Positions 48,272 to 61,080 of a DNA stretch of 64,000 nucleotides are shown here, one piece after another. The notes beneath the pieces are model-generated. The model saw only the letters and a list, made by a program, of their open reading frames with translations, did no database searches and was not told the origin of the DNA. The position numbers and the translations under genes are program-made. Position 1 is the stretch's first letter. Every line of letters starts with the position of its first letter. This DNA is from Asanoa ferruginea (GTDB lineage Bacteria > Actinomycetota > Actinomycetes > Mycobacteriales > Micromonosporaceae): positions 7,378,001 through 7,442,000 of the forward strand of contig NZ_QUMQ01000001.1 of NCBI RefSeq assembly GCF_003387075.1, read 5' to 3'.

Positions 48272-50075
48272 ATGGAGGATGAGGCCAGGCCGGCGATCGA
48301 GCACGTGACCATGCCTGATGATCCACTGTTAGTGGAAGCCGGCTCCGACTTCGATTGGCTCACTGGTAGTGGAGGTCGTCTGAGCTGGCTAGAACAACGA
48401 CCATCAACAGGAAGGTCCGTTGTCGTTAGCCTGGAGCGAGGCCAGCTCGTCGGCTACGGCGTCCGCGGTGGGAGCATAGGGAGCTCACTTCACTCGTACG
48501 GCGGTAGACCATTCGTGTTCCTCGGATCCGAGGGCTTGGTCGCTGTAGACGCCTCCACAGGTTGCGTCGTCGGGACTGGAGAAACCGCTGACTCGTTCAC
48601 GTACGGCGATCTTGAATACGACAACGGCGAGGTGCTAGCGGTTCGCGAGCGCGAAAGCGGCGACCAGCTTGTGGCTCTTGACCGCGTTCGTGGGTGAACA
48701 CGGAACGCTCCACACCACCGATGGCTTCCTGGCGTCACCACGTGCGCTTGGGACTCGGATCGCCTGGAGCCAGTGGGCTGGCGATGTAATGCCATGGGAT
48801 TCAAGCGAAGTGTGGATCGGCCACCGACCCAACCGAGGTCGCATCCAGCAGGCCCAGCGGGTGGCCGGCAGTCCTGAGGAGTCGGCCCTCCAGCCGACCT
48901 GGGGACCTGACGGAACCCTTTATTTCATCTCGGACGGGTCGGGATGGTGGAACCTTTATCGCTGGCGCGACGGCCACGTTGATGCAGTCGCGCCAGTGGC
49001 TGCCGAGTGTGCCACGGCTCCATGGGAGTCGACCTATTCCAACTACGTTCTGCTGCCGAGGGACCGCATTGCCCTGACAGTTCAGTCGGGACCGGAACAG
49101 AGGCTCGTCCTCGTCGAATCGGACCTGACAAGCCGCGTCGTCGACCTCCCGTATACGACGATCAAGCCATACCTCGCACCGCTCGGCGACCGGGTCGGCC
49201 TGATCGGCGCCTCGCCGACACGGGAGCCGGAGATCGCTTTGGTCGCAACCGACGGCAGCAACACGCTGGACGTCATCCGACGCTCCTCAGCTCGCCCGGA
49301 ACCAGCCAGGGTCTCCGTACCGGAGGTGCTGCGAGTGGCCGCAGGCGATGCCACGGCAACCGTGCTCTTTTACCCGCCCTTGGAAGACAGCAAGCAACCG
49401 CCGTTGATCGTGCGACCCCACGCCGGCCCGACGTACAACAGCGAGTTGCGACTAAACCCTGAGGTTCAGTTCTTCACGAGCCGCGGGTTTGCGGTCGCCG
49501 AAGTGGACTATCGAGGCAGCACCGGCTACGGCCGATCGTTCCGTAAGGCGCTCGACGGAGGCTGGGGACACGTCGATGTGGAAGACTGCTGCAACGTCGC
49601 GCTTCACCTCATCGAGGCCGGTCGAGTCCATACCAGCGCCGTGTTCATTTCCGGATCCAGTGCTGGCGGCTATACCGCACTCAAGGCCGTATGCGACGAC
49701 GGTCCGTTCGCCCTTGCAGTCGCTCGCTCAGCGATCATCGATCCGCAACGTTGGCGAACGACAGCTCCACGTTTTCAACGTCCACACGCGACGATCTTGG
49801 CTTCCGCGACCTCCCCAGTCAGAGCAGACGAGGTTCGACGCGGTGTTCTGCTTATCCACGGTGTCGCCGACGATGTCGCCCCGGTCTCAGATGTGAGGAG
49901 ACTGGCTGCCGCCGTCCAAGATCACGGCCTGTTGGTAGACCTGCTTGAGTTCGATGGGGTCGGCCACTATCTTTCTGCCGCCGCCCGACGAAGCGCCGTT
50001 GAGGCTGAACTGGCCGCCTACCAGGCCGTCCTATCGCGAATGCGATCCGCTACGCCGGCGCCGGGAGTGGCTTGA
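48272..50075 (+). CDS. Prolyl-oligopeptidase family (S9) serine peptidase, interrupted by one frameshift
   Basis: ATG 48272 begins the N-terminal beta-propeller (GGRLSWLEQRPSTGRSVVV, SSLHSYGGRPFVFLGSEGL, DSFTYGDLEYDNGEVLAVRE). At 48693-48698 the frame meets GGG-TGA; in the +1 frame it continues exactly as expected (EHGTLHTTDGFLASPRALG, TRIAWSQW, QPTWGPDGTLYFISDGSGWW). The catalytic domain is complete: ISGSSAGGYTALK (nucleophile Ser), GVADDVAPVSD (Asp), DGVGHYLSA (His). So one extra or missing base separates two good halves. It may be an inactivating indel, a sequencing error in a G-run, or +1 frameshifting at a stop codon. The 3' end overlaps the convergent regulator gene by 26 bp. Confidence 0.75.
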
Positions 50076-51315
50076 GGGTGGTGTGGGCGTAGTCGACGAT
50101 CTCGCGCACTTCCGGAACGTCAGCACTAGGTTGCAGCTCGGCGAGCATGAGCGCGATGCGATGTGTCGTGCGGAACGAAACCAGGCCGGCGGCGTGGTCG
50201 ACTGCGGAGCGAGCGAAGGCGCAGGCCTGTTCGAGTTCGCCGACCCTTGCGTGAGCGGCCGCCCGGAGTGCGGTGTCGATGCTGATGCGTCGGGCTCGAT
50301 GCGGCGGCAAGAGCGTCAGCGCGATCTCGGCTTCGCGGTGCGCGAGCTGATAGCGGCCAAGGTCAAAGAAGCAATGCGCCTTTTCATCAGCGAGGTCTGC
50401 TTCGCCGAAGTAGCGGATCCATGCTGGCTCTTCGCTTGGTCGGCTTCGAGCGAGATCGGCGTCGACCTGGAGAAGTGCTGCTGCGCAGGCGCCCTCGTCA
50501 CCGAGGCGGGCGTATGCCCGCGCGAGGACGATGCGGAAAGCTGCTCTGACCGCCGGGGAGGCGTGGTCGTTGGTCCCGTGGATTCCGGCAGTAGCGAGCC
50601 GGAGTGCCTGTTGCGGGTCACCGCAATGCAGTGCCAGGTGGGCCAAGCTGACCGCAACAAGGTAGCCGCCGTAGACCCGGTCGCCTGACCTGGTCAAGAG
50701 GGCCAGCGCTCGGAGGTAGTGCTGCTGGGCAAGGCCATCCACGCCTAGGTCAACCGCGTCGTAACCGGCCAACTCGAGCATCCCGGTCGCAACCTGTGGC
50801 GCGTTCGCGGCAAGACTCGACAGACGGCCATCCAAGGTTTCAGCCAACCTCGAGTAGGTGACGCCTGCTCCATGCACGTGGTCTTGACTTCGGAGGTTGG
50901 CTAACGCCGCAACAGCCGTCGTGACGGTGTCGTCGTCGACCGCTGGGCGCCGATCGGTCGAGGGTGTAGCCATCAACCAGTCGAGCACGGGTCGATCTGC
51001 GGCGCTGCTGCGGTATGCGCTGCACTCCCCCTTCGTGCCTGCATATGAGCGTAGTAGTCGCTCCCGGTGGATTAGGGGAAGCAGCTGTGTGAGGGAGCCG
51101 TCCGCATGCAGCGCCACGTCGCAACGTGCGATGAAGTCGTTTGAGGGGATCCGCTCAGCGATCTCAATTCGCCGGACAAGATCCCTGTGAACGAACAGCT
51201 GCTCCCCGAGTTCGGCCTGTGAGAGACCGCACGCGGTTCGGAGGTGGCGGATCCGTGCGCCGACATAGTCCAAGACCGACCGCGTCGGCGTCAGGGGCTT
51301 CGGAGCCTGTCCCAC
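50050..51315 (-). CDS. XRE-family HTH regulator with TPR-like repeats (421 aa)
   Basis: GTG 51315. Residues ~15-75 are an XRE HTH (VGARIRHLRTACGLSQAELG, EQLFVHRDLVRRIEIAERIP). The remaining ~330 residues are helical repeats (LAQQHYLRALALLTRSGDRV, LAHLALHCGDPQQALRLATA, AARIVLARAYARLGDEGACA) typical of streptomycete regulators that bind a signal through TPR-like arrays. No membrane segment. Its 3' end overlaps the convergent S9 peptidase gene, which could couple their expression. Confidence 0.8.
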   Translation of the reverse strand: MGQAPKPLTPTRSVLDYVGARIRHLRTACGLSQAELGEQLFVHRDLVRRIEIAERIPSNDFIARCDVALHADGSLTQLLPLIHRERLLRSYAGTKGECSAYRSSAADRPVLDWLMATPSTDRRPAVDDDTVTTAVAALANLRSQDHVHGAGVTYSRLAETLDGRLSSLAANAPQVATGMLELAGYDAVDLGVDGLAQQHYLRALALLTRSGDRVYGGYLVAVSLAHLALHCGDPQQALRLATAGIHGTNDHASPAVRAAFRIVLARAYARLGDEGACAAALLQVDADLARSRPSEEPAWIRYFGEADLADEKAHCFFDLGRYQLAHREAEIALTLLPPHRARRISIDTALRAAAHARVGELEQACAFARSAVDHAAGLVSFRTTHRIALMLAELQPSADVPEVREIVDYAHTTLKPLPAPA

Positions 51316-53198: not shown

Positions 53199-53459
53199 AT
53201 GCCTCGCGTTTACTACAGCTACAGCGATATTGCCGACGAGATTCGTCGGCAGATCACCTCAGGCGAGCTTCCCCCGGGCGCCGCGCTGCCGACCGGTCGC
53301 GTCTTGTGTGAGAGATACAGCGTCAGCCGCCAGACGATCGCGAGCGCGATGCTGGTTCTGCGCACAGAAGGGCTCATTGCCGGCCAGCAGGGCAAAGCCG
53401 TCTACGTCAGCGCTGACCATCGGATCGTCCAGACAGCCCGGGACGCTGAGACCACATGA
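53199..53459 (+). CDS. GntR-type winged-helix regulator, DNA-binding domain only (86 aa)
   Basis: ATG 53199. The whole protein is a GntR HTH: YSDIADEIRRQITSGELPPG, AALPTGRVLCERYSVSRQTI, ASAMLVLRTEGLIAGQQGKA, VYVS. There is no effector-binding domain, as in small plasmid or cluster-borne GntR proteins. It overlaps the next frame (stop 53457-53459; candidate ATG 53456) and heads a run of six further co-oriented genes, so it probably controls them. Confidence 0.85.
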   Translation: MPRVYYSYSDIADEIRRQITSGELPPGAALPTGRVLCERYSVSRQTIASAMLVLRTEGLIAGQQGKAVYVSADHRIVQTARDAETT

Positions 53460-53503
53460 TCAGGACTGTCCTTGCCGGCCCCTACCACAGAAGGGCTGAA
53501 AAA

Positions 53504-54529
53504 GTGCGAATCGGCTACAGCATGTGGGGATTCCTTGGCTCCGGAGTCGTTGACACTCCTGACGGCGCCCGCGCCTTCCGTCGGTCCTTTGTGGATGCCT
53601 TGGCAGGCGACGAACACGAGATGGTGTTCCTTCAGAAGAACCGTGACCTCGAGGAAGCGGGACTGGATCTCACTGATCGGTTCGTGTGGAATCCATCGGG
53701 TCTTCCTGCGCTCGAAACGGTCGTGTTGGAGTGGCGGTGGCCTCTTCCCGGCCGGAATACCACTTCGTGCGGCACGCCGGGCCACACCTGCGACCTGCAT
53801 CGTCAAGCCGAGCTTCTTTGGCACTACGCGGCGGCGCCGCGGACGACTCTGTTGATCTGGGATCTGGACCGTCAGCTTCCATCCGACGCTGAGGTGCGCC
53901 GGTTGCCGGGCGTGGTGGTTGGCGAGTTCGCGTTGGCGCACACGGTCGGCGCTCATCATGTCCCCTGCCCAGTTCCGGACGAGGCGCTGGATCGCGCTGA
54001 CCCTGTTTTGCTGGCGCGCCGGCGCCGAGCTACGCCGCTGGTGTATGTCGGGAATCAGTACGACCGCGACGACCACTTCGACACGTTCTTCGCACCAGCT
54101 GCGCGAGTGGTGCGTCATCAGGTTGCGGGGAAATGGCCGCACATCAGCCGTTGGCCACACCTAACCTTCTCTGGCCGCGCTGGCTTCGCCGATGTTGCCC
54201 GGATCCACGCCGGCGCCCTGGCGACGGTATTACTGCTGCCTTCGCGGTATCGCGAGGTGGGTCATATGACGTCGCGGTGGTGGGAGTCGCTGTTTGAGGG
54301 GTGCCTACCGCTTGTCCCTGCGGATGTGTATGGCGCCCACTCGTTTGTGCCGAAGGAACTCATCGTCAATGACGGCCGTGAGGTGCTCGAGCGGATCGGC
54401 TGGTTGCAAGGCATCGCCGGCACGAGGGAGCACGCCGCGACCATCGCTACCTGTCTGTCCTTCCTGGAACCATTTCGCTGTTCTGCGGTGACGCGGACGG
54501 TGTTGAGCGCTATGGAGAAGCCGCGATGA
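53504..54529 (+). CDS. Glycosyltransferase-like protein (GT-B style), 341 aa
   Basis: GTG 53504 has GAAGGG 8 nt upstream and starts MRIGYSMWGFLGSGVVDTPD, as expected for the first strand and glycine-rich loop of a GT-B Rossmann fold; ATG 53456 is a longer alternative. The C-terminal half has LVYVGNQYDRDDHFDTFFAP (second Rossmann start), ISRWPHLTFSGRAGFADVAR, IHAGALATVLLLPSRYREVG and WWESLFEGCLPLVPADVYGA. The last is very like the donor-site helix of glycosyltransferases (E-x-L-x-x-G-x-x-P-V). No signal peptide. It overlaps the thymidylate-synthase homologue by 4 bp. The sugar and acceptor cannot be read from sequence. Confidence 0.6.
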   Translation: MRIGYSMWGFLGSGVVDTPDGARAFRRSFVDALAGDEHEMVFLQKNRDLEEAGLDLTDRFVWNPSGLPALETVVLEWRWPLPGRNTTSCGTPGHTCDLHRQAELLWHYAAAPRTTLLIWDLDRQLPSDAEVRRLPGVVVGEFALAHTVGAHHVPCPVPDEALDRADPVLLARRRRATPLVYVGNQYDRDDHFDTFFAPAARVVRHQVAGKWPHISRWPHLTFSGRAGFADVARIHAGALATVLLLPSRYREVGHMTSRWWESLFEGCLPLVPADVYGAHSFVPKELIVNDGREVLERIGWLQGIAGTREHAATIATCLSFLEPFRCSAVTRTVLSAMEKPR

Positions 54530-55530
54530 CGACGATCACGGGTCCGACGTTCCGCGGGTTCACTGACGCCTACCGGGCGGTGCTCGCCGGCATCCTCGAG
54601 GCGCCTCGATACCGCACGAGCACGCGGGCCAAGACCGCTGTCGAGACACCGAACGTCAGTTTCACGCTCCTGGATCCGGTCGTGCGGATGCCGTTGATCG
54701 CGGCTCGGAAGGCGAACGTGGTGTTCAACCACGCGGAGGCGTTGTGGTACCTGATGGGTCGCGACGATCTGGACATGATCGGCTATTACGCGCCGAGCCT
54801 TCGACCGTTGTCGGCGGACGGTGAGCGGCTGACCGGCACCGCATACGGTCCGCGACTGTTCCAGCCCGATGGCGAGGACCGGCGTAGCCAGTTCACCCGG
54901 GTCATGGCTCTGCTGCGGCGTGACCCGGACACGAAGCGGGCCGCGCTGCTGATCATGCGGCCGGACGAGTTGGTCGACCCGGACAACCCCGATGTGGCAT
55001 GCACGCTGGGCCTGCAACTGATGCTCCGCGAAGGCGAGCTGCACATGTCGGCGTTCATGCGCGGAAACGACGCGGTCATAGGCCTGCTCGGTGACACGTT
55101 CGCGTTCACGTTCATCCAGGAGTTCGCCGCGCGGCAGCTCGACGTCGAGGTAGGCACCTACGCGCACCACGTCGGTTCGATGCACATCAACGTCAATCAC
55201 CTGGACCAGGTCGCCGCGATCCTCGCCGAACCCGACGGTCCGACCTTTCCGCGGGTGCAGATGCCCAAGACGAGCTGGATCGACCTCGCCGACATCGGCA
55301 GTTGGGAGGAGCGCCTGCGCCGGGACCACGCCCGCTTCGACCGCGACGACTGCGTGGGCATCGATCCGTACTGGGCGCAAGTGATCGCGCTGTTCGAGGT
55401 CTACCGGCAGATCGTTCACTGTCCCGGCCAGCGGGTCACCGTCGCTGCGCTGGAGATGCTCCGCCCGGACCACCGGTGGCTGGTCACCCACCGGTGGCCG
55501 TCACGGATGCCGGAACCGGTGACAGCATGA
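54526..55530 (+). CDS. Thymidylate synthase homologue (nucleotide C5-modifying type)
   Basis: 334 residues. Clear thymidylate-synthase superfamily: NHAEALWYLMGRDDLDMIGY, GTAYGPRLF, NPDVACTLGLQLMLREGELH with the catalytic Cys159, MSAFMRGNDAVIGLLGDTFAFT and AHHVGSMHINVNHLDQVAAI. The active site is V-A-C-T rather than P-C-H, and the Q-R-S signature is M-R-G-N-D. This is the style of homologues that methylate or hydroxymethylate nucleotides other than dUMP (for example CMP hydroxymethylase MilA or PolB-type enzymes in nucleoside antibiotic pathways). So a housekeeping ThyA is unlikely. Start ATG 54526 and the stop both overlap neighbours by 4 bp. The exact base and one-carbon unit are unknown. 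Confidence 0.8.
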   Translation: MTTITGPTFRGFTDAYRAVLAGILEAPRYRTSTRAKTAVETPNVSFTLLDPVVRMPLIAARKANVVFNHAEALWYLMGRDDLDMIGYYAPSLRPLSADGERLTGTAYGPRLFQPDGEDRRSQFTRVMALLRRDPDTKRAALLIMRPDELVDPDNPDVACTLGLQLMLREGELHMSAFMRGNDAVIGLLGDTFAFTFIQEFAARQLDVEVGTYAHHVGSMHINVNHLDQVAAILAEPDGPTFPRVQMPKTSWIDLADIGSWEERLRRDHARFDRDDCVGIDPYWAQVIALFEVYRQIVHCPGQRVTVAALEMLRPDHRWLVTHRWPSRMPEPVTA

Positions 55531-56057
55531 CCAGCGTCGACTGGACCCGGTGGTCGGTGGTGTTGCTCAAACCCGACTGCGTCGCCCGCCGTCTCGTCGA
55601 CCAAGTCCTCGACGTCATCGGCAACGACGCCACGATTGTTGACCGGCGGATCGTGCATCCGACCGCGGACCAGATCTTCGCCCACTACGCCGACCTGCTG
55701 ACCATGCCGCGCATCGCCGACTTCACCTGGGTCGACGTACACGCGGACGTCCACCGAACCTACGTCGGCCAGCCCACCGGAATCGCGCTCGCGCATGCCC
55801 CCGATGCTGCCGTCCGGCTTCGCGGACTGATCGGCCACTTCGACCCCGCGCAGGCCAGCACCGACACGATCCGCGGACGGTTTGGGACGGATTCCTTGGC
55901 CCGCGCGCGGGCCGAACGGCGACTGATCGCGAACGTCATCCACACCTCCGACGATCCCGTCGGCGCCCGTCGCGAGTTCGGCATCTGGTACGGCAACGCC
56001 CGCGCTCACCTGCTCAACCGTGCCGCCACCACCCCAGCGGAAGGAGCTCCCACGTGA
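55527..56057 (+). CDS. Nucleoside diphosphate kinase-like protein (176 aa)
   Basis: The fold markers are VVLLKPDCVARRLVDQVLDV at the N-terminus (K-P-D), ALAHAPDAAVRLRGLIGHFD with QASTDTIRGRFG (R-G-x-F-G), and ANVIHTSDDPVGARREFGIW carrying the phosphate-accepting His139. It is longer than housekeeping NDP kinases (~140 aa) and has inserted segments (TMPRIADFTWVDVHADVHRT), so it may act on a special nucleotide. ATG 55527 overlaps the upstream stop and its own stop overlaps the radical SAM start, which strongly implies a shared pathway. Confidence 0.8.
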   Translation: MTSVDWTRWSVVLLKPDCVARRLVDQVLDVIGNDATIVDRRIVHPTADQIFAHYADLLTMPRIADFTWVDVHADVHRTYVGQPTGIALAHAPDAAVRLRGLIGHFDPAQASTDTIRGRFGTDSLARARAERRLIANVIHTSDDPVGARREFGIWYGNARAHLLNRAATTPAEGAPT

Positions 56058-57298
56058 CCCTCGACCTGCTGCCCATGGACCCCGGGCCCCGAACGCTGCC
56101 CGTGCTCGGTGACGCCGCCAAGGCCGCCCTCGACCCTTACATGGCGCTGATCGTCGGCTACCGCAAGTCCGGGCTGTCGCTCAACCACATCATCGGCTGC
56201 CCACTGGACTGCGGCTACTGCGTCCGCCACTTCTGGGGCAACTTCGACGTCAAGGTCCCGCACCTCCTCTGCCCCACCGACGAAGCCATCGAAATGCTCG
56301 TCAGCCACCACGCGTTCCGGCCGCACACCACCCCGATTCAGCTGTTCAACAAGGCCACCGACCCGTTCCTGCCCGGCGTAAAACCCCACCTGTTCCAGGT
56401 ACTGCAGGCCCTGGACAGCCGCGGCTACACCAACCACGTCCTGGTCATCACCCGCTTCCACGTCACCGAAGCCGACATGGCCGCCCTCGAGCAGCTCGAG
56501 CACGTGCGGGTCACCCTGCTGTTCACCTACAGCGGCATCCAAGACCCGCGCGTCGAGCCGATCGCGAAATCGGAAGTCACGGTCCGGTCGATCCGCACCG
56601 CCGCCGCCCATCGGACCCGGACCGGCGTGGTCCTGTACTGGAGGCCGATCGTGCCCGGCTGGAACGACCAGCCCGAGACCATGGCCCGCGTCCTTGACCT
56701 CGGCCAGGCCGTCGACGCGATCGTCTTCACCGGCTACTACCACAAGCCGCAAAACGCCGACTTCCTGCGCGACCTCGGCGTCGAGGTCCCCTACGGCGAC
56801 GACTACGCCCGCCGCAAGGTCATGCCCGCCGACCTCGACGCCCACGTCGTCGCCGCCTGGGAAGCCAGCGGCATCAACACTCCGCTGTTTCGCAAAACCT
56901 CATGCGGCGTCGCCTACGCCCACCAAGCACCGGACTACAACGGTCACTGGGGTGTCAGGGAAATCTGCGACATCTGCCCCGCCGCCCAACGGGACCGCTG
57001 TGCGGCCGACTACCGCGAGCCCGAACCCGCGGACATGCAGGACGTGCTCAACCTGTTCGGCTACGACAGCGACTTCGTCATCGAGCCCGGCCATATCTGG
57101 ACCCACGGCCTCGGCGAGCAGCGGCGCTACGCCATCCAACACACCCTCCGGCACCAGATCTGGGAACTCGACCAACCCCACTACCTGCACGCCCACGGCC
57201 GATCTTTGACCGGACACAGCTCCGACCCCGACCAACTCGCCGCCGTGACCGCCGTCCGGGCTCAGTTCGAGGACGCGGCGCGGTACGAAGACGACTGA
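56054..57298 (+). CDS. Radical SAM enzyme (414 aa)
   Basis: GTG 56054. The cluster motif C-x3-C-x2-C is IIGCPLDCGYCVRHF (Cys49, Cys53, Cys56). The barrel follows: LFNKATDPFLPGVKPHLFQV, HVLVITRFHVTEADMAALEQ, VRVTLLFTYSGIQDPRVEPI, VLYWRPIVPGWNDQPETM. This ordering resembles the spore-photoproduct-lyase-like subfamily. A C-terminal region has TSCGVAYAHQ and ICDICPAAQRDRCAADY, four more cysteines that may bind a second iron-sulfur cluster. It is embedded between the NDP-kinase and exonuclease genes; a nucleotide or nucleic-acid substrate is a reasonable guess but unproven. Confidence 0.85.
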   Translation: MTLDLLPMDPGPRTLPVLGDAAKAALDPYMALIVGYRKSGLSLNHIIGCPLDCGYCVRHFWGNFDVKVPHLLCPTDEAIEMLVSHHAFRPHTTPIQLFNKATDPFLPGVKPHLFQVLQALDSRGYTNHVLVITRFHVTEADMAALEQLEHVRVTLLFTYSGIQDPRVEPIAKSEVTVRSIRTAAAHRTRTGVVLYWRPIVPGWNDQPETMARVLDLGQAVDAIVFTGYYHKPQNADFLRDLGVEVPYGDDYARRKVMPADLDAHVVAAWEASGINTPLFRKTSCGVAYAHQAPDYNGHWGVREICDICPAAQRDRCAADYREPEPADMQDVLNLFGYDSDFVIEPGHIWTHGLGEQRRYAIQHTLRHQIWELDQPHYLHAHGRSLTGHSSDPDQLAAVTAVRAQFEDAARYEDD

Positions 57299-57315
57299 CA
57301 GACGAGCACGAGAGA

Positions 57316-57954
57316 ATGACGCAGATGGCACCGGCGCCCTGGCACAACGCACCGATCGTCGCATTCGACCTCGAAGGCAGCGGCGCGCAGGACCGCGACC
57401 GCGAAGCAATCCTCGAACTCGCCGCCGTGCCACTCGTCGACGGCCAGCCGGCACCAGACCAAGCGTTCAGCACCTTGGTCAACCCCGGCCGGCCCATACC
57501 TCGACGACCCTGGATCTCTCCCGGCCTGACCGACGACAGGCTCGCGGACGCCCCGACGATGAGCGACCTTGGTCCGACACTGGTCGAAAGGATCAACGGC
57601 CGGTGGCTTCTCGGGCACAACGTCAACGTCGACTGGCGTCTCCTACGCCACCACCTGCCGCACCTGGAGCCGGCCGGGCTGATCGACACCCTTCCCCTGG
57701 CGCGACAGGCCATCCGCGACGGCAGACGGTCCCTCACCGACCTGATCAGCCACTTTGGACTTTCCGAGCTCGTCAACGCCGCAGCGCCCGGAAGCAAACC
57801 GCACCGTGCGCTCTGGGATGCCGTCGCCGTCGGCTACCTCCTGCGCTCCCTCACCGCCGAGCTCTGGCCCGATCAGATCCCCACCCTCGATACCGTTCGA
57901 AGCCCCGTGCCGGCACGGGCCGCCCGCGTGGATGAACAGCCCGGCCTCTTCTAA
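57316..57954 (+). CDS. DEDDh 3'-5' exonuclease-like protein (212 aa)
   Basis: ATG 57316 (ATG 57325 also possible). The three exonuclease motifs are in order: Exo I IVAFDLEGSGAQDRDREAIL (D18, E20), Exo II RWLLGHNVNVDWRLLRHHL, Exo III KPHRALWDAVAVGYLL (H-x4-D). So it has the full catalytic set of the DnaQ/RNase T-type superfamily. No other domain is fused. It lies 17 bp after the radical SAM gene. In this setting it could act on nucleic acid or oligonucleotide intermediates; this is inference. Confidence 0.8.
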   Translation: MTQMAPAPWHNAPIVAFDLEGSGAQDRDREAILELAAVPLVDGQPAPDQAFSTLVNPGRPIPRRPWISPGLTDDRLADAPTMSDLGPTLVERINGRWLLGHNVNVDWRLLRHHLPHLEPAGLIDTLPLARQAIRDGRRSLTDLISHFGLSELVNAAAPGSKPHRALWDAVAVGYLLRSLTAELWPDQIPTLDTVRSPVPARAARVDEQPGLF

Positions 57955-58058
57955 CCCGGGACGCTCCGCCAAGTGCGCGGCCTGATCGGCCAGGCGATGC
58001 GCGGGCTCATGACATCCCGAGACCTTCCCATCTGATCCGACAAGCCGGAGGCAGCCAC

Positions 58059-58973
58059 GTGGTTCCTGCTCGACTCCTGCGCGCCTGCGTCCGTCATGGC
58101 CCCGCGTGGTGGCCGACCGCTCGGGCAGCCGAGGTCCTCGACAAGCGGTTGATGCATCACCCGATCACCTCCATCGCCCGCACCCGATACGGTGCGCGCA
58201 TTCCGGTCACGACCAGCGACCTCATCCAGCGCTACCTCTACATGTTCGGCACCTGGGAACCGAATCTGACCGCCTGGATCTGCGGCCAGTTGCGGCCAGG
58301 CGACGATTTCATCGACGTCGGTGCCAACGTCGGCCACTTCTCCCTGCTGGCCGCATCATTGATTGGCCCGTCTGGCCGGGTCGTCGCAATCGAAGCATCG
58401 CCCCGGCTCGCGGCCACCCTGGTGCAGACAGCGACGGCCAACGGCTACAAGAACGTACGGGTTGTCAGCAGTGCAGTCTCCGCCGCCGCAGGCGAGCTGA
58501 CCTTCTACATCAAGGACAGGAACAACCTCGGCGGGACGACCAGCATCCGACCCCGCAAGCAACCGCCAGCCGCGTTCAGCGCGCCGACCGCATCTCTCCC
58601 CGACCTCCTCAGCGCCACAGAGCTCGAAAACGCACGCATCATCAAAATCGACGTCGAAGGCTCCGAGGCCGACGTTATGGACGGACTCTCACCTCACCTC
58701 CACCGGCTTCGACCCGACGCCGAACTCGCCATCGAAATCTCACCCAAACGACTCGCCCGACAAGGCCGCACACCGCGCGACGTGACCGCACCCATGCACG
58801 CCGCCGGTTTCCGCCGTTATCGGATCGACAACAGTTACGCCCCCCGCAGCTACGCCGAACGCCAGGTCACCCCGCCACACCCTTGGCCCCACCCGATCAC
58901 GGAGATGAGCGACCTCATCTTTTCCCGCTCGCACCATTCAGCGTCCCCGTCGGGGCCGCACGCCACCCGTTAG
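58059..58973 (+). CDS. FkbM-family methyltransferase (304 aa)
   Basis: GTG 58059 follows GGAGG. The SAM-binding core is DFIDVGANVGHFSLLAASLI (about residue 84), RVVAIEASPRLAATLVQTAT, VRVVSSAVSAAAGELTFYIK, and the FkbM hallmark RIIKIDVEGSEADVMDGL. FkbM enzymes usually O-methylate sugars or hydroxyls. It is 104 bp after the exonuclease gene and is probably the last gene of the cluster. A hydroxymethyl or sugar group introduced by the upstream enzymes would be a natural acceptor. Confidence 0.8.
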   Translation: MVPARLLRACVRHGPAWWPTARAAEVLDKRLMHHPITSIARTRYGARIPVTTSDLIQRYLYMFGTWEPNLTAWICGQLRPGDDFIDVGANVGHFSLLAASLIGPSGRVVAIEASPRLAATLVQTATANGYKNVRVVSSAVSAAAGELTFYIKDRNNLGGTTSIRPRKQPPAAFSAPTASLPDLLSATELENARIIKIDVEGSEADVMDGLSPHLHRLRPDAELAIEISPKRLARQGRTPRDVTAPMHAAGFRRYRIDNSYAPRSYAERQVTPPHPWPHPITEMSDLIFSRSHHSASPSGPHATR

Positions 58974-60069: not shown

Positions 60070-61080
60070 ATGGCCGTGCCGCTCAGCGCGCCAATCGTCC
60101 CGATGATCGCGGTGACGGCTGAACTACCAACTGGGAACCAATGGGCGTACGAGCCGAAATGGGACGGGTTCCGGGCGGTCGCGTTCCGCCGCGAGAACCG
60201 CGTCGACCTGCAGTCCCGATCGGTCAAGCCGCTCGGTTCGTACTTCCCCGAGATCACCCGCGCGATCCGAGCTGCTGTCCCACCCGGTGTAGTCCTGGAC
60301 GGTGAACTTCTCGTGTGGGACAACGACCGCGAACGCAGCTCGTTCGCGCTGCTCCAGCGGCGAATCTCCGCCGGACGCCACGTAAACCGCTACGCGCGTC
60401 GCTGGCCCGCCCACTACGTGGCCTTCGACCTTCTCGCCGACGGGCAACGGTCCCTGCTCGGCCTGCCGCTGCGAGAACGACGTCGCCGTCTCGAGCAGCT
60501 CCTGGCTCGAGCGCCGAACGAGGTCGTCCTGACACCGCAGACGACCGACCTGGACGTGGTGACGGAGTGGATCGACACCTGGACCGAGACCGGCATTGAG
60601 GGCGTCGTCGCGAAACGGTTGGACCACCCCTATCGGCCGGGCCAGCGCGGCTGGCGAAAACATCGCACCCGCTCCACGACTGAGGCGATCATCGCCGGAA
60701 TCACTGGCTGGCTGTCAGCACCGCAGACCATCCTGGTCGGCAGGCTCGACACCCGCGGACGCCTACGATATGTCGGCCGATCCACACCCCTCACCGACGG
60801 ACAGCGGACCGAACTCGCGCCGCTACTATCCCGACCCATCGCCCAACACCGCGCTGCGCCAGTGCAGCATCCGTGGCCGCAGCCTCTGCCGGCGTCATGG
60901 TCAGGGTCGTGGGAGCGCCCGGAGCCGCTCCGATACGTGCCCACCCAGCCCGACGTCGTGGCTGAGATCCTCGTCGATACCGCGTTCGAACACTCACGCT
61001 GGCGGCACCGGGTCAAGTTCGTCAGACCGCGGCGGGACATGTCGGTGTATGACGTGCCGATCCTCGGCCCTCACGTGTAG
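60070..61080 (+). CDS. ATP-dependent DNA ligase (LigC-like, 336 aa)
   Basis: Motif I is AYEPKWDGFRAVAF with adenylated Lys30; motif III-like YVAFDLLADGQRSLLGLPL, motif IV TGIEGVVAKRLD, motif V RGWRKHRTRSTTEAIIAG. The C-terminal OB-fold region has LVGRLDTRGRLRYVGRSTPL. No polymerase or nuclease domain is fused, as in LigC-type ligases of actinobacteria. In motif V the second lysine of W-x-K-x-K is Arg. ATG 60070. It may serve the element or long-patch repair; no Ku gene is near. Confidence 0.85.
   Translation: MAVPLSAPIVPMIAVTAELPTGNQWAYEPKWDGFRAVAFRRENRVDLQSRSVKPLGSYFPEITRAIRAAVPPGVVLDGELLVWDNDRERSSFALLQRRISAGRHVNRYARRWPAHYVAFDLLADGQRSLLGLPLRERRRRLEQLLARAPNEVVLTPQTTDLDVVTEWIDTWTETGIEGVVAKRLDHPYRPGQRGWRKHRTRSTTEAIIAGITGWLSAPQTILVGRLDTRGRLRYVGRSTPLTDGQRTELAPLLSRPIAQHRAAPVQHPWPQPLPASWSGSWERPEPLRYVPTQPDVVAEILVDTAFEHSRWRHRVKFVRPRRDMSVYDVPILGPHV

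Follow-up and report, generated by a model that had tools for sequence, protein, structure and literature searches.

MilA and BcmA, the cytidine monophosphate (CMP) hydroxymethylases of the mildiomycin and bacimethrin pathways, are related to thymidylate synthase (TS), and for MilA the structure paper PMC5175136 attributes the preference for ribose to Lys133 and Ala176 and that for cytosine to Asp186. The three genes thmA-C of Photorhabdus, according to PMC12691670, encode a radical S-adenosylmethionine (SAM) enzyme, a kinase and a resistance NTPase, are spread over species and yield 4′-thiothymidine that is incorporated into DNA. Viperins are radical SAM enzymes acting on cytidine nucleotides, and according to PMC9415739 the nsp14 exonuclease of SARS-CoV-2 removes the viperin-made chain terminator ddhC from RNA. 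In phage T4 the TS homolog of gene 42 adjoins b-gt, the gene of a β-glucosyltransferase annotated as glucosylating hydroxymethylcytosine in phage DNA. Here we describe a gene cassette at positions 53199-58973 of a 64,000-nucleotide stretch of the Asanoa ferruginea genome (the window; contig NZ_QUMQ01000001.1, 7378001-7442000 of a single-contig 9.07-Mb genome). The cassette is real and conserved and appears to represent a variant of a nucleotide-analogue pathway whose most constant partner is an exonuclease of the DNA-proofreading type.

With thmA-C the cassette shares a minimal set of radical SAM enzyme, kinase and proposed nucleotide-acting resistance enzyme as well as a distribution over species, and the same fate in DNA is proposed for its product; resistance in thmA-C is conferred by an NTPase and no TS figures in the account given in PMC12691670, whereas the window carries a clamp-type exonuclease together with a TS homolog. 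A radical SAM enzyme that may act on cytidine nucleotides, accompanied by a predicted 3′-5′ exonuclease, an activity that can undo the viperin product, recalls the viperins. As in T4, a TS homolog adjoins a glycosyltransferase of similar fold, but the T4 deoxy signature (Arg/Ser) and a phage replication context are absent from the window cassette. The mildiomycin and bacimethrin pathways provide the nearest enzyme, although its partners here are a kinase, a radical SAM enzyme and an exonuclease instead of an N-glycosidase.

Composition and distribution of the cassette

The unit as originally delimited comprises these genes:

53199..53459, + strand: GntR DNA-binding domain alone, 86 amino acids (PF00392, 59 bits)
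53456..54529, + strand: GT, glycosyltransferase of GT-B fold (AlphaFold2 (AF2) model and Foldseek; without a sequence family)
54526..55530, + strand: TS homolog, predicted MilA-type CMP 5-hydroxymethylase (5jnh match, tree and residues; Thymidylat_synt, 62 bits)
55527..56057, + strand: NDK, divergent nucleoside diphosphate kinase (PF00334, 65 bits)
56054..57298, + strand: rSAM, radical SAM enzyme (alignment, cysteine pattern, AF2 model and Foldseek)
57316..57954, + strand: EXO, DEDDh 3′-5′ exonuclease of PolC/ExoX/DnaQ type (PF00929 (RNase_T), 50 bits; C-terminal QPGLF)
58059..58973, + strand: FkbM-type methyltransferase (TIGR01444, 101 bits)

All seven genes of the unit that an original prediction, made before any database search, had placed here are present, and its NDK homolog and GT-B-like glycosyltransferase were correctly recognized. 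It had also described 4-bp overlaps among the middle four genes; the overlaps (ATGA/GTGA) exist, although they span four junctions (GntR/GT, GT/TS, TS/NDK and NDK/rSAM) and chain five genes from GntR to rSAM. EXO probably starts at the ATG at 57316, 17 nt past the rSAM stop, and a gap of 104 nt separates it from the FkbM gene.

Relatives of rSAM were found in 14 of 151 genomes (the host counted, some matches being weak or partial), in 39 plasmid records (24 of the 30 matches listed at 44-50% identity), in 268 stretches of genome contigs and at nine loci in predicted viral contigs of IMG/VR, with zero matches in 50,697 sequenced-phage records. Gene content was counted in the best 80 of the 268 genome stretches, a choice that favours relatives of the window. 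rSAM and EXO occur in all 80, a P-loop kinase (KIN) in 40, NDK in 39, TS in 38, an aldo/keto reductase (AKR) in 25 and GT in 18; the EXO count includes a fragment in L087 (a 38-residue match) and the AKR count a distant copy on the other strand in L103. EXO is thus the most constant neighbour of rSAM. TS was accompanied by NDK in 38 of 38 loci and GT by TS in 18 of 18, and all 18 GT-bearing loci show the order GT-TS-NDK-rSAM-EXO at 44-81% identity to the window proteins. The recurrence of this array in 18 of 80 loci, a check proposed with the original prediction, indicates that it did not arise by chance. Either NDK or KIN is present in 77 of the 80, and of the remaining three L060 and L080 start at a contig edge near rSAM.

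The genes are arranged in a number of layouts. Layout A, (GT)-TS-NDK-rSAM-EXO, is found in actinomycetes and includes the window; layout B, rSAM-EXO-KIN, is found in several phyla, often with AKR or, on four alphaproteobacterial plasmids, with an HD protein; and layout C, TS-NDK-rSAM-EXO-KIN-AKR, is found in Streptomyces and Kitasatospora. A single viral-contig locus, L168, carries all seven genes as TS-NDK-rSAM-EXO-KIN-AKR-GT. TS and KIN occur together in two of the 80 loci and additionally in six Streptomyces plasmid loci and five of the nine viral loci, a combination therefore commoner than the 80 loci suggest. Every TS-bearing locus seen among the 80 is actinomycete, and TS was not found in 42 of the 80 that carry rSAM and EXO. 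The seven-gene composition originally proposed accordingly holds for the window and not for the conserved core, which consists of rSAM and the exonuclease with exchangeable kinases.

Copies of the cassette lie scattered in several phyla, on chromosomes, on plasmids and in predicted viral contigs. The rSAM-EXO core occurs in actinomycetes, Pseudomonadota and Myxococcota, and in Bacteroidota, Nitrospirota, Acidobacteriota and Obscuribacterales in metagenome-assembled records only, which may be mis-binned; L118 (Nitrospirales) and L119 (Acidobacteriota) have nearly identical KIN proteins and an identical EXO tail. To survey further partners the open reading frames (ORFs) of 96 stretches (the 80 loci, 15 fetched loci and the window) were clustered and the 60 largest clusters judged by eye, among which no further partner was recognized in more than seven stretches and a single transporter, a permease, was seen in four of the 96.

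In five alphaproteobacterial type-B cassettes the gene immediately upstream of rSAM encodes a protein annotated DUF3800 (L048:5742-6902) or one of its relatives (L109:8706-9854, L115:8706-9854, L127:8739-9887 and L128:8693-9886). On the Streptomyces plasmids L028:3866-10248 and L134:1937-8915 a set of GT, aldolase, MurA-like protein and distant rSAM precedes an EXO of this family, with a KIN annotated too in L134. Such an rSAM-MurA-aldolase-GT set ahead of a family EXO is present in S. anthocyanicus and Streptomyces SYP-A7193, and L028 retains 29 C-terminal residues of the displaced cassette rSAM. This looks like a cassette swap, which we left unused as functional evidence; the combination of MurA-like protein and rSAM in L028 and L134 is reminiscent of polyoxin and nikkomycin chemistry.

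Predicted biosynthetic enzymes of the cassette

The closest solved relative of the window TS is MilA (5jnh; E 5.7e-75, 255 bits, nearly full length), the next being a ThyA at 49 bits. We built a tree of 51 sequences comprising 42 operon TSs and references including MilA, three bacimethrin-type plasmid TSs, ThyA, the T4 dCMP hydroxymethylase and the SPO1 dUMP hydroxymethylase. The 42 operon TSs form one separate clade (98/94) that joins MilA and the three plasmid TSs (97/97), while ThyA and the T4 and SPO1 enzymes lie beyond it on long branches of uncertain order. The grouping with MilA and not with ThyA upholds the original prediction, which had made this tree a check on a C5-modified pyrimidine nucleotide pathway; the active site V-A-C-T, which it had called non-canonical in a TS homolog, is MilA's own sequence. 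Housekeeping ThyA was rejected as an identity on the basis of the tree and a best NCBIfam score of 57 bits against an equivalog cut-off of 327.

The residues of the window TS corresponding to those of MilA are E71, K137, C159, G180, D190, H220 and N222. Across the operon TSs the catalytic Glu68 and Cys155 of MilA are kept in 42 of 42, as are Lys at position 133 and Asp at position 186, while position 176 is Gly in 28 (window included), Ala in 14 and Ser in none. The host ThyA row also shows Asp at 186, against the Asn given for that position in PMC5175136, and is probably misaligned at that column. All 42 carry Lys with Gly or Ala in place of Arg and Ser, and on these residues and the tree a T4-like deoxy enzyme was also rejected. 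We consider the family and base specificity of this predicted MilA-type CMP hydroxymethylase well supported by sequence, the base being cytosine and the starting nucleotide probably CMP, which narrows the C5-modified pyrimidine of the original prediction to cytosine. The operon TSs part from MilA at Tyr218. This Tyr contacts the sugar hydroxyls and is shared by MilA and eight other reference TSs, but all 42 operon TSs carry another residue there (Asn in 34, Gly in 7, Ala in 1). Its loss in enzymes that retain their catalytic residues suggests that the substrate is a CMP whose sugar is altered.

MilA-like TSs also lie beside genes annotated as nucleoside deoxyribosyltransferases on Streptomyces and Priestia plasmids (L135, L136 and L137). 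These are probably bacimethrin-like clusters and their deoxyribosyltransferase-type proteins would be MilB-like or bacimethrin-type N-glycosidases. When used as queries, the three plasmid proteins found one another and gave no homolog in the 80 loci, in 32 further loci or in the nine viral loci. The absence of N-glycosidase homologs from these loci indicates that the nucleotide is probably kept whole and phosphorylated rather than cleaved to the base.

The operon NDKs (n=46) retain the active-site His and Asn and both of two Arg residues in 46 of 46, and Lys and Tyr each in 45 with one gap each. A segment of common NDKs holds a base-stacking Phe, and at that site the operon NDKs have a longer, different segment. 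These proteins may therefore be active kinases with altered base recognition. In several Streptomyces plasmids two NDK domains are duplicated in tandem (about 344-353 amino acids; L023:6929-7963, L045:5915-6967 and L049:5910-6971).

GT has zero family matches in Pfam, NCBIfam and PHROGs (E<=1) and zero sequence matches in the PDB. Its AF2 model (pLDDT 86.4) has a GT-B fold with T4 β-glucosyltransferase (1qkj; E 3.7e-9, query TM-score (TMq) 0.56) as the top Foldseek match, closely followed by tetrahydrobiopterin glucosyltransferases and other GT-B enzymes. That each of the 18 GT-bearing loci among the 80 also has TS argues that GT acts on the TS product, an argument stronger than that from the fold since GT-B folds are alike. 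KIN belongs to the P-loop kinases (AAA_28, 43-44 bits); a closer identity was sought in the PDB, where profile matches were weak and mostly confined to the P-loop region.

The window rSAM gave a sub-threshold Radical_SAM match alone (E 0.54) in searches of Pfam, NCBIfam and PHROGs. It contains a CX3CX2C motif, whose cysteines are kept in 25 (C49), 24 (C53) and 25 (C56) of 25 aligned members, and four further cysteines, C284, C305, C308 and C316, that are invariant in all 25. The latter, already noticed in the original prediction as extra C-terminal cysteines, suggest a second metal or Fe-S site. The AF2 model (pLDDT 88.8) contains the rSAM core and matched the pyruvate formate-lyase (PFL)-activating enzyme, spore photoproduct lyase (SPL) and, lower, CTP-bound viperin at TMq 0.40-0.47. 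SPL was matched at E 2e-5, TMq 0.47 and 11-12% identity, and the family profile found no sequence relative in the PDB. Neither the window rSAM nor that of Sinorhizobium matched a PADLOC model (E<=0.01), a library that presumably holds a viperin profile, and the identification as a prokaryotic viperin was rejected on this ground; the enzyme further differs from viperins in its additional 4-Cys site and in a TMq of 0.40 to viperin.

The exonuclease and its C-terminal tail

The family profile of EXO matched the PolC exonuclease domain (103 bits), ExoX (92) and DnaQ epsilon (87) best, with RNase T at 37. The DEDDh residues D25, E27, H170 and D175 are kept in 16 of 16 members, in agreement with the class originally assigned, and in some members the Exo II Asp is replaced by Glu in an alignment read by eye. 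These matches identify EXO as a predicted DNA-proofreading-type exonuclease, a point that had escaped the original prediction together with a clamp-like tail. DnaQ epsilon carries a clamp-binding motif, and EXO resembles it and PolC in its DEDDh residues and in a putative motif of the same kind; unlike them it is a stand-alone protein of about 190-220 amino acids coupled to a biosynthetic operon.

The window EXO ends in DEQPGLF. The strict pattern QxxL[FW] is found in 30 of 94 EXO tails, whereas 2000 shuffles of these tails gave 0.46 matches on average and never more than 4; a looser pattern fits 47 of 94, with 2.05 (maximum 8) in the shuffles. The strict pattern was found in none of the tails of 107 rSAM, 55 KIN, 32 AKR and 94 TS/NDK-cluster ORFs. 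QxxLF is described as a general bacterial sliding-clamp-binding motif in PMC12309361, and the EXO tail may accordingly serve as a putative tether to the sliding clamp.

The host encodes an orphan second EXO at 7852715-7853311 (L174:6698-7312), ~417 kb away, which is 77% identical, ends in QPRLF and has no other cassette gene around it in the 14 kb read. Eleven genomes contain EXO at E<=1e-30 (the host included), seven of them with rSAM and four without. In L190 and L192 EXO is unbroken and no other cassette gene lies within 16 kb; the rSAM-less L191 has GT and an EXO whose tail extends past the motif region, and in the rSAM-less L193 EXO is broken. In five further species of the host's genus larger proteins alone match, at 33-35% identity. 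Self-resistance genes often spread beyond producers.

Proposed pathway and rival explanations

From the families, conserved residues, gene linkage, tail statistics and orphan copies described above we infer a possible order of steps, a product, its target, its toxicity and an immunity. The rSAM enzyme would alter the sugar of a cytidine nucleotide, and the MilA-type TS would place a hydroxymethyl group on C5 of the sugar-altered CMP, the alteration being suggested by the loss of Tyr218. The host CMP kinase and the dedicated NDK, whose substrate is presumed, would raise the product to the triphosphate, a role for which the P-loop kinase may substitute in TS-less relatives. GT would glycosylate the hydroxymethyl group thus introduced, a step of tailoring or of protection. 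The triphosphate would then block or enter nascent DNA, and EXO, held on the sliding clamp by its C-terminal QxxLF, would strip the product from the primer end and so confer self-immunity. That a sugar-altered, C5-hydroxymethylated cytidine triphosphate harms DNA synthesis and that clamp-tethered proofreading protects the producer, the whole forming a compact, horizontally moving cassette, is a reading to which we would give somewhat less than an even chance. The wider claim of a new toxin-and-immunity pathway, in which an unstudied rSAM family makes a sugar-altered cytidine nucleotide that stops DNA synthesis, is further hydroxymethylated and glycosylated in actinomycetes and is countered by a private proofreading exonuclease docked on the host clamp, is possible though we regard it as rather doubtful. 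If correct, nucleotides would be the substrates of a widespread rSAM family, new cytidine analogues would have a natural source, and producers would protect themselves by clamp-tethered proofreading, a mode of self-protection not found described in the literature searched; orphan EXO copies would then mark strains that met the product. A description of the cassette was likewise not found in the open-access literature searched, which is not proof of its absence.

A number of observations weigh against this proposal. Product and activity are predicted from genes alone, and the sample behind the layout counts, the best 80 of 268 stretches, is biased to relatives of the window. MilA prefers a ribonucleotide, so that a DNA-directed product would need ribonucleotide reduction or a tolerant polymerase, and cassettes without TS provide no proof of cytosine. 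GT-B folds are mutually alike, and the match to T4 β-glucosyltransferase is weak evidence for the acceptor. The loose tail pattern accounts for 47 of 94 EXO tails at most, many others ending in EGGLW or QGSFL, which bear no more than a resemblance to it; the motif was counted after it had been noticed, and the 94 tails belong to related, not independent, proteins. On a Nostoc plasmid (L021) rSAM-KIN stands without EXO, and EXO is also missing from L036 (a stop inside rSAM), L038 (fragments) and L040, L041 and L044 (distant rSAMs). GT and EXO lie side by side in L191 (7788-9529) without TS, NDK or rSAM, so that GT is not strictly tied to TS; perhaps both are protective there, or the locus has decayed.

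An intracellular anti-phage system comparable to prokaryotic viperin, in which a CTP analogue would poison the polymerases of phages and the exonuclease would keep the host unharmed, would account for the near absence of a recurrent transporter and for the scatter across several phyla and across chromosomal, plasmid and predicted viral sequences. The fold matches of rSAM include viperin (TMq 0.40), genes of Shedu, CBASS, toxin-antitoxin, DNA-methylase or TIR type occur near some copies on alphaproteobacterial plasmids, an anecdotal association, and of the HD proteins on four such plasmids the one examined weakly matches dGTPase (E 4.5e-6). However, rSAM matches no PADLOC model, and the genes upstream of Streptomyces plasmid cassettes include those of helix-turn-helix (HTH) regulators and a ‘DUF6415 family natural product biosynthesis protein’. 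In a small test of flanking genes, 100 of the 140 flank ORFs of 17 type-B loci were compared with 100 of the 128 ORFs taken as controls on those contigs; at E<=1e-15, and among the matches listed, the flank set hit 37 PADLOC families and the control set 69, so that no enrichment in defence genes was visible. Enrichment in defence islands was thus not found, although a test of this size leaves room for a defence role, and an anti-phage purpose is kept as a rival only, which we consider unlikely. The near absence of a recurrent transporter counts in the opposite direction for a conventional, secretable antibiotic or signal of nucleoside type, in the mildiomycin and bacimethrin class, with an incidental exonuclease. 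Such a product would fit the sister relationship of the TS clade to MilA and the bacimethrin-type TSs and the restriction of TS-bearing loci among the 80 to actinomycetes, but no MilB-type N-glycosidase was found in the 80, 32 further and nine viral loci and no neighbour is as constant as the exonuclease, and we judge it distinctly unlikely.

Modification of DNA bases as in T4, with TS-made hydroxymethylcytosine brought into DNA and glucosylated by GT, would explain why TS adjoins GT, as T4 gene 42 adjoins b-gt, why the top fold match of GT is T4 β-glucosyltransferase and why the exonuclease appears clamp-linked. It is at odds with diagnostic residues matching the ribonucleotide enzyme MilA (Lys, Gly/Ala) and not T4 dCMP hydroxymethylase (Arg, Ser), with the 42 of 80 rSAM-EXO loci in which TS was not found and with the recurrent clusters, among which no modification-dependent nuclease or polymerase was recognized by eye; we hold it to be very improbable. 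A similarly small chance is given to a DNA repair unit in which an SPL-like rSAM reverses a lesion, the clamp-bound exonuclease trims or proofreads and the kinases supply nucleotides. The DNA type of EXO and the presence of SPL among the best fold matches of rSAM (E 2e-5, TMq 0.47) would suit such a unit, yet the identity of rSAM to SPL is 11-12% and the CMP hydroxymethylase, GT and aldo/keto reductase would be left without a role.

Borders of the unit and neighbouring genes

Beyond the unit the following neighbours were identified:

48669-50072: S9-peptidase-like gene
50053..51315, - strand: XRE (HTH_31) regulator, divergent from the operon (PF13560, 46 bits)
60070-61080: stand-alone ATP-dependent DNA ligase domain protein, just outside the unit (PF01068, 126 bits)

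To locate the borders eight proteins of the window neighbourhood were searched in the 80 loci, some of which begin or end at contig edges. An XRE homolog lies divergently beside GT in four of the 80 (L053-L056, 60-62% identity), where XRE and the S9-peptidase-like gene stand upstream of GT in the same order as in the window and at the same identity. GntR at its window place was found in none of the 80, and an FkbM homolog in one (L070, 70% identical, past EXO and an aldo/keto reductase), which excluded both as core members. Given these counts and the retention of XRE in L053-L056, GntR and FkbM look like local additions, FkbM being local or accessory, while the XRE protein is probably the regulator of the conserved unit. 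Of the earlier proposals the lone GntR domain and the FkbM methyltransferase therefore stand as gene assignments, and a conserved GntR regulator and O-methylation as a core step do not. A SAM-dependent methyltransferase often lies no more than a few kb downstream of EXO, namely the FkbM of the window, weak FkbM-like matches at the orphan EXOs L190-L193 and a PCMT-like cluster in others (L067, L074).

The host carries housekeeping copies of ThyA (387 bits) and NDK (173 bits) elsewhere in its genome. rSAM was not found in the five further species of the genus examined (E<=1e-8), which indicates that the cassette was probably gained by the host. The protein with the ligase domain at 60070-61080 has a distant homolog near one of the 80 loci (L107).

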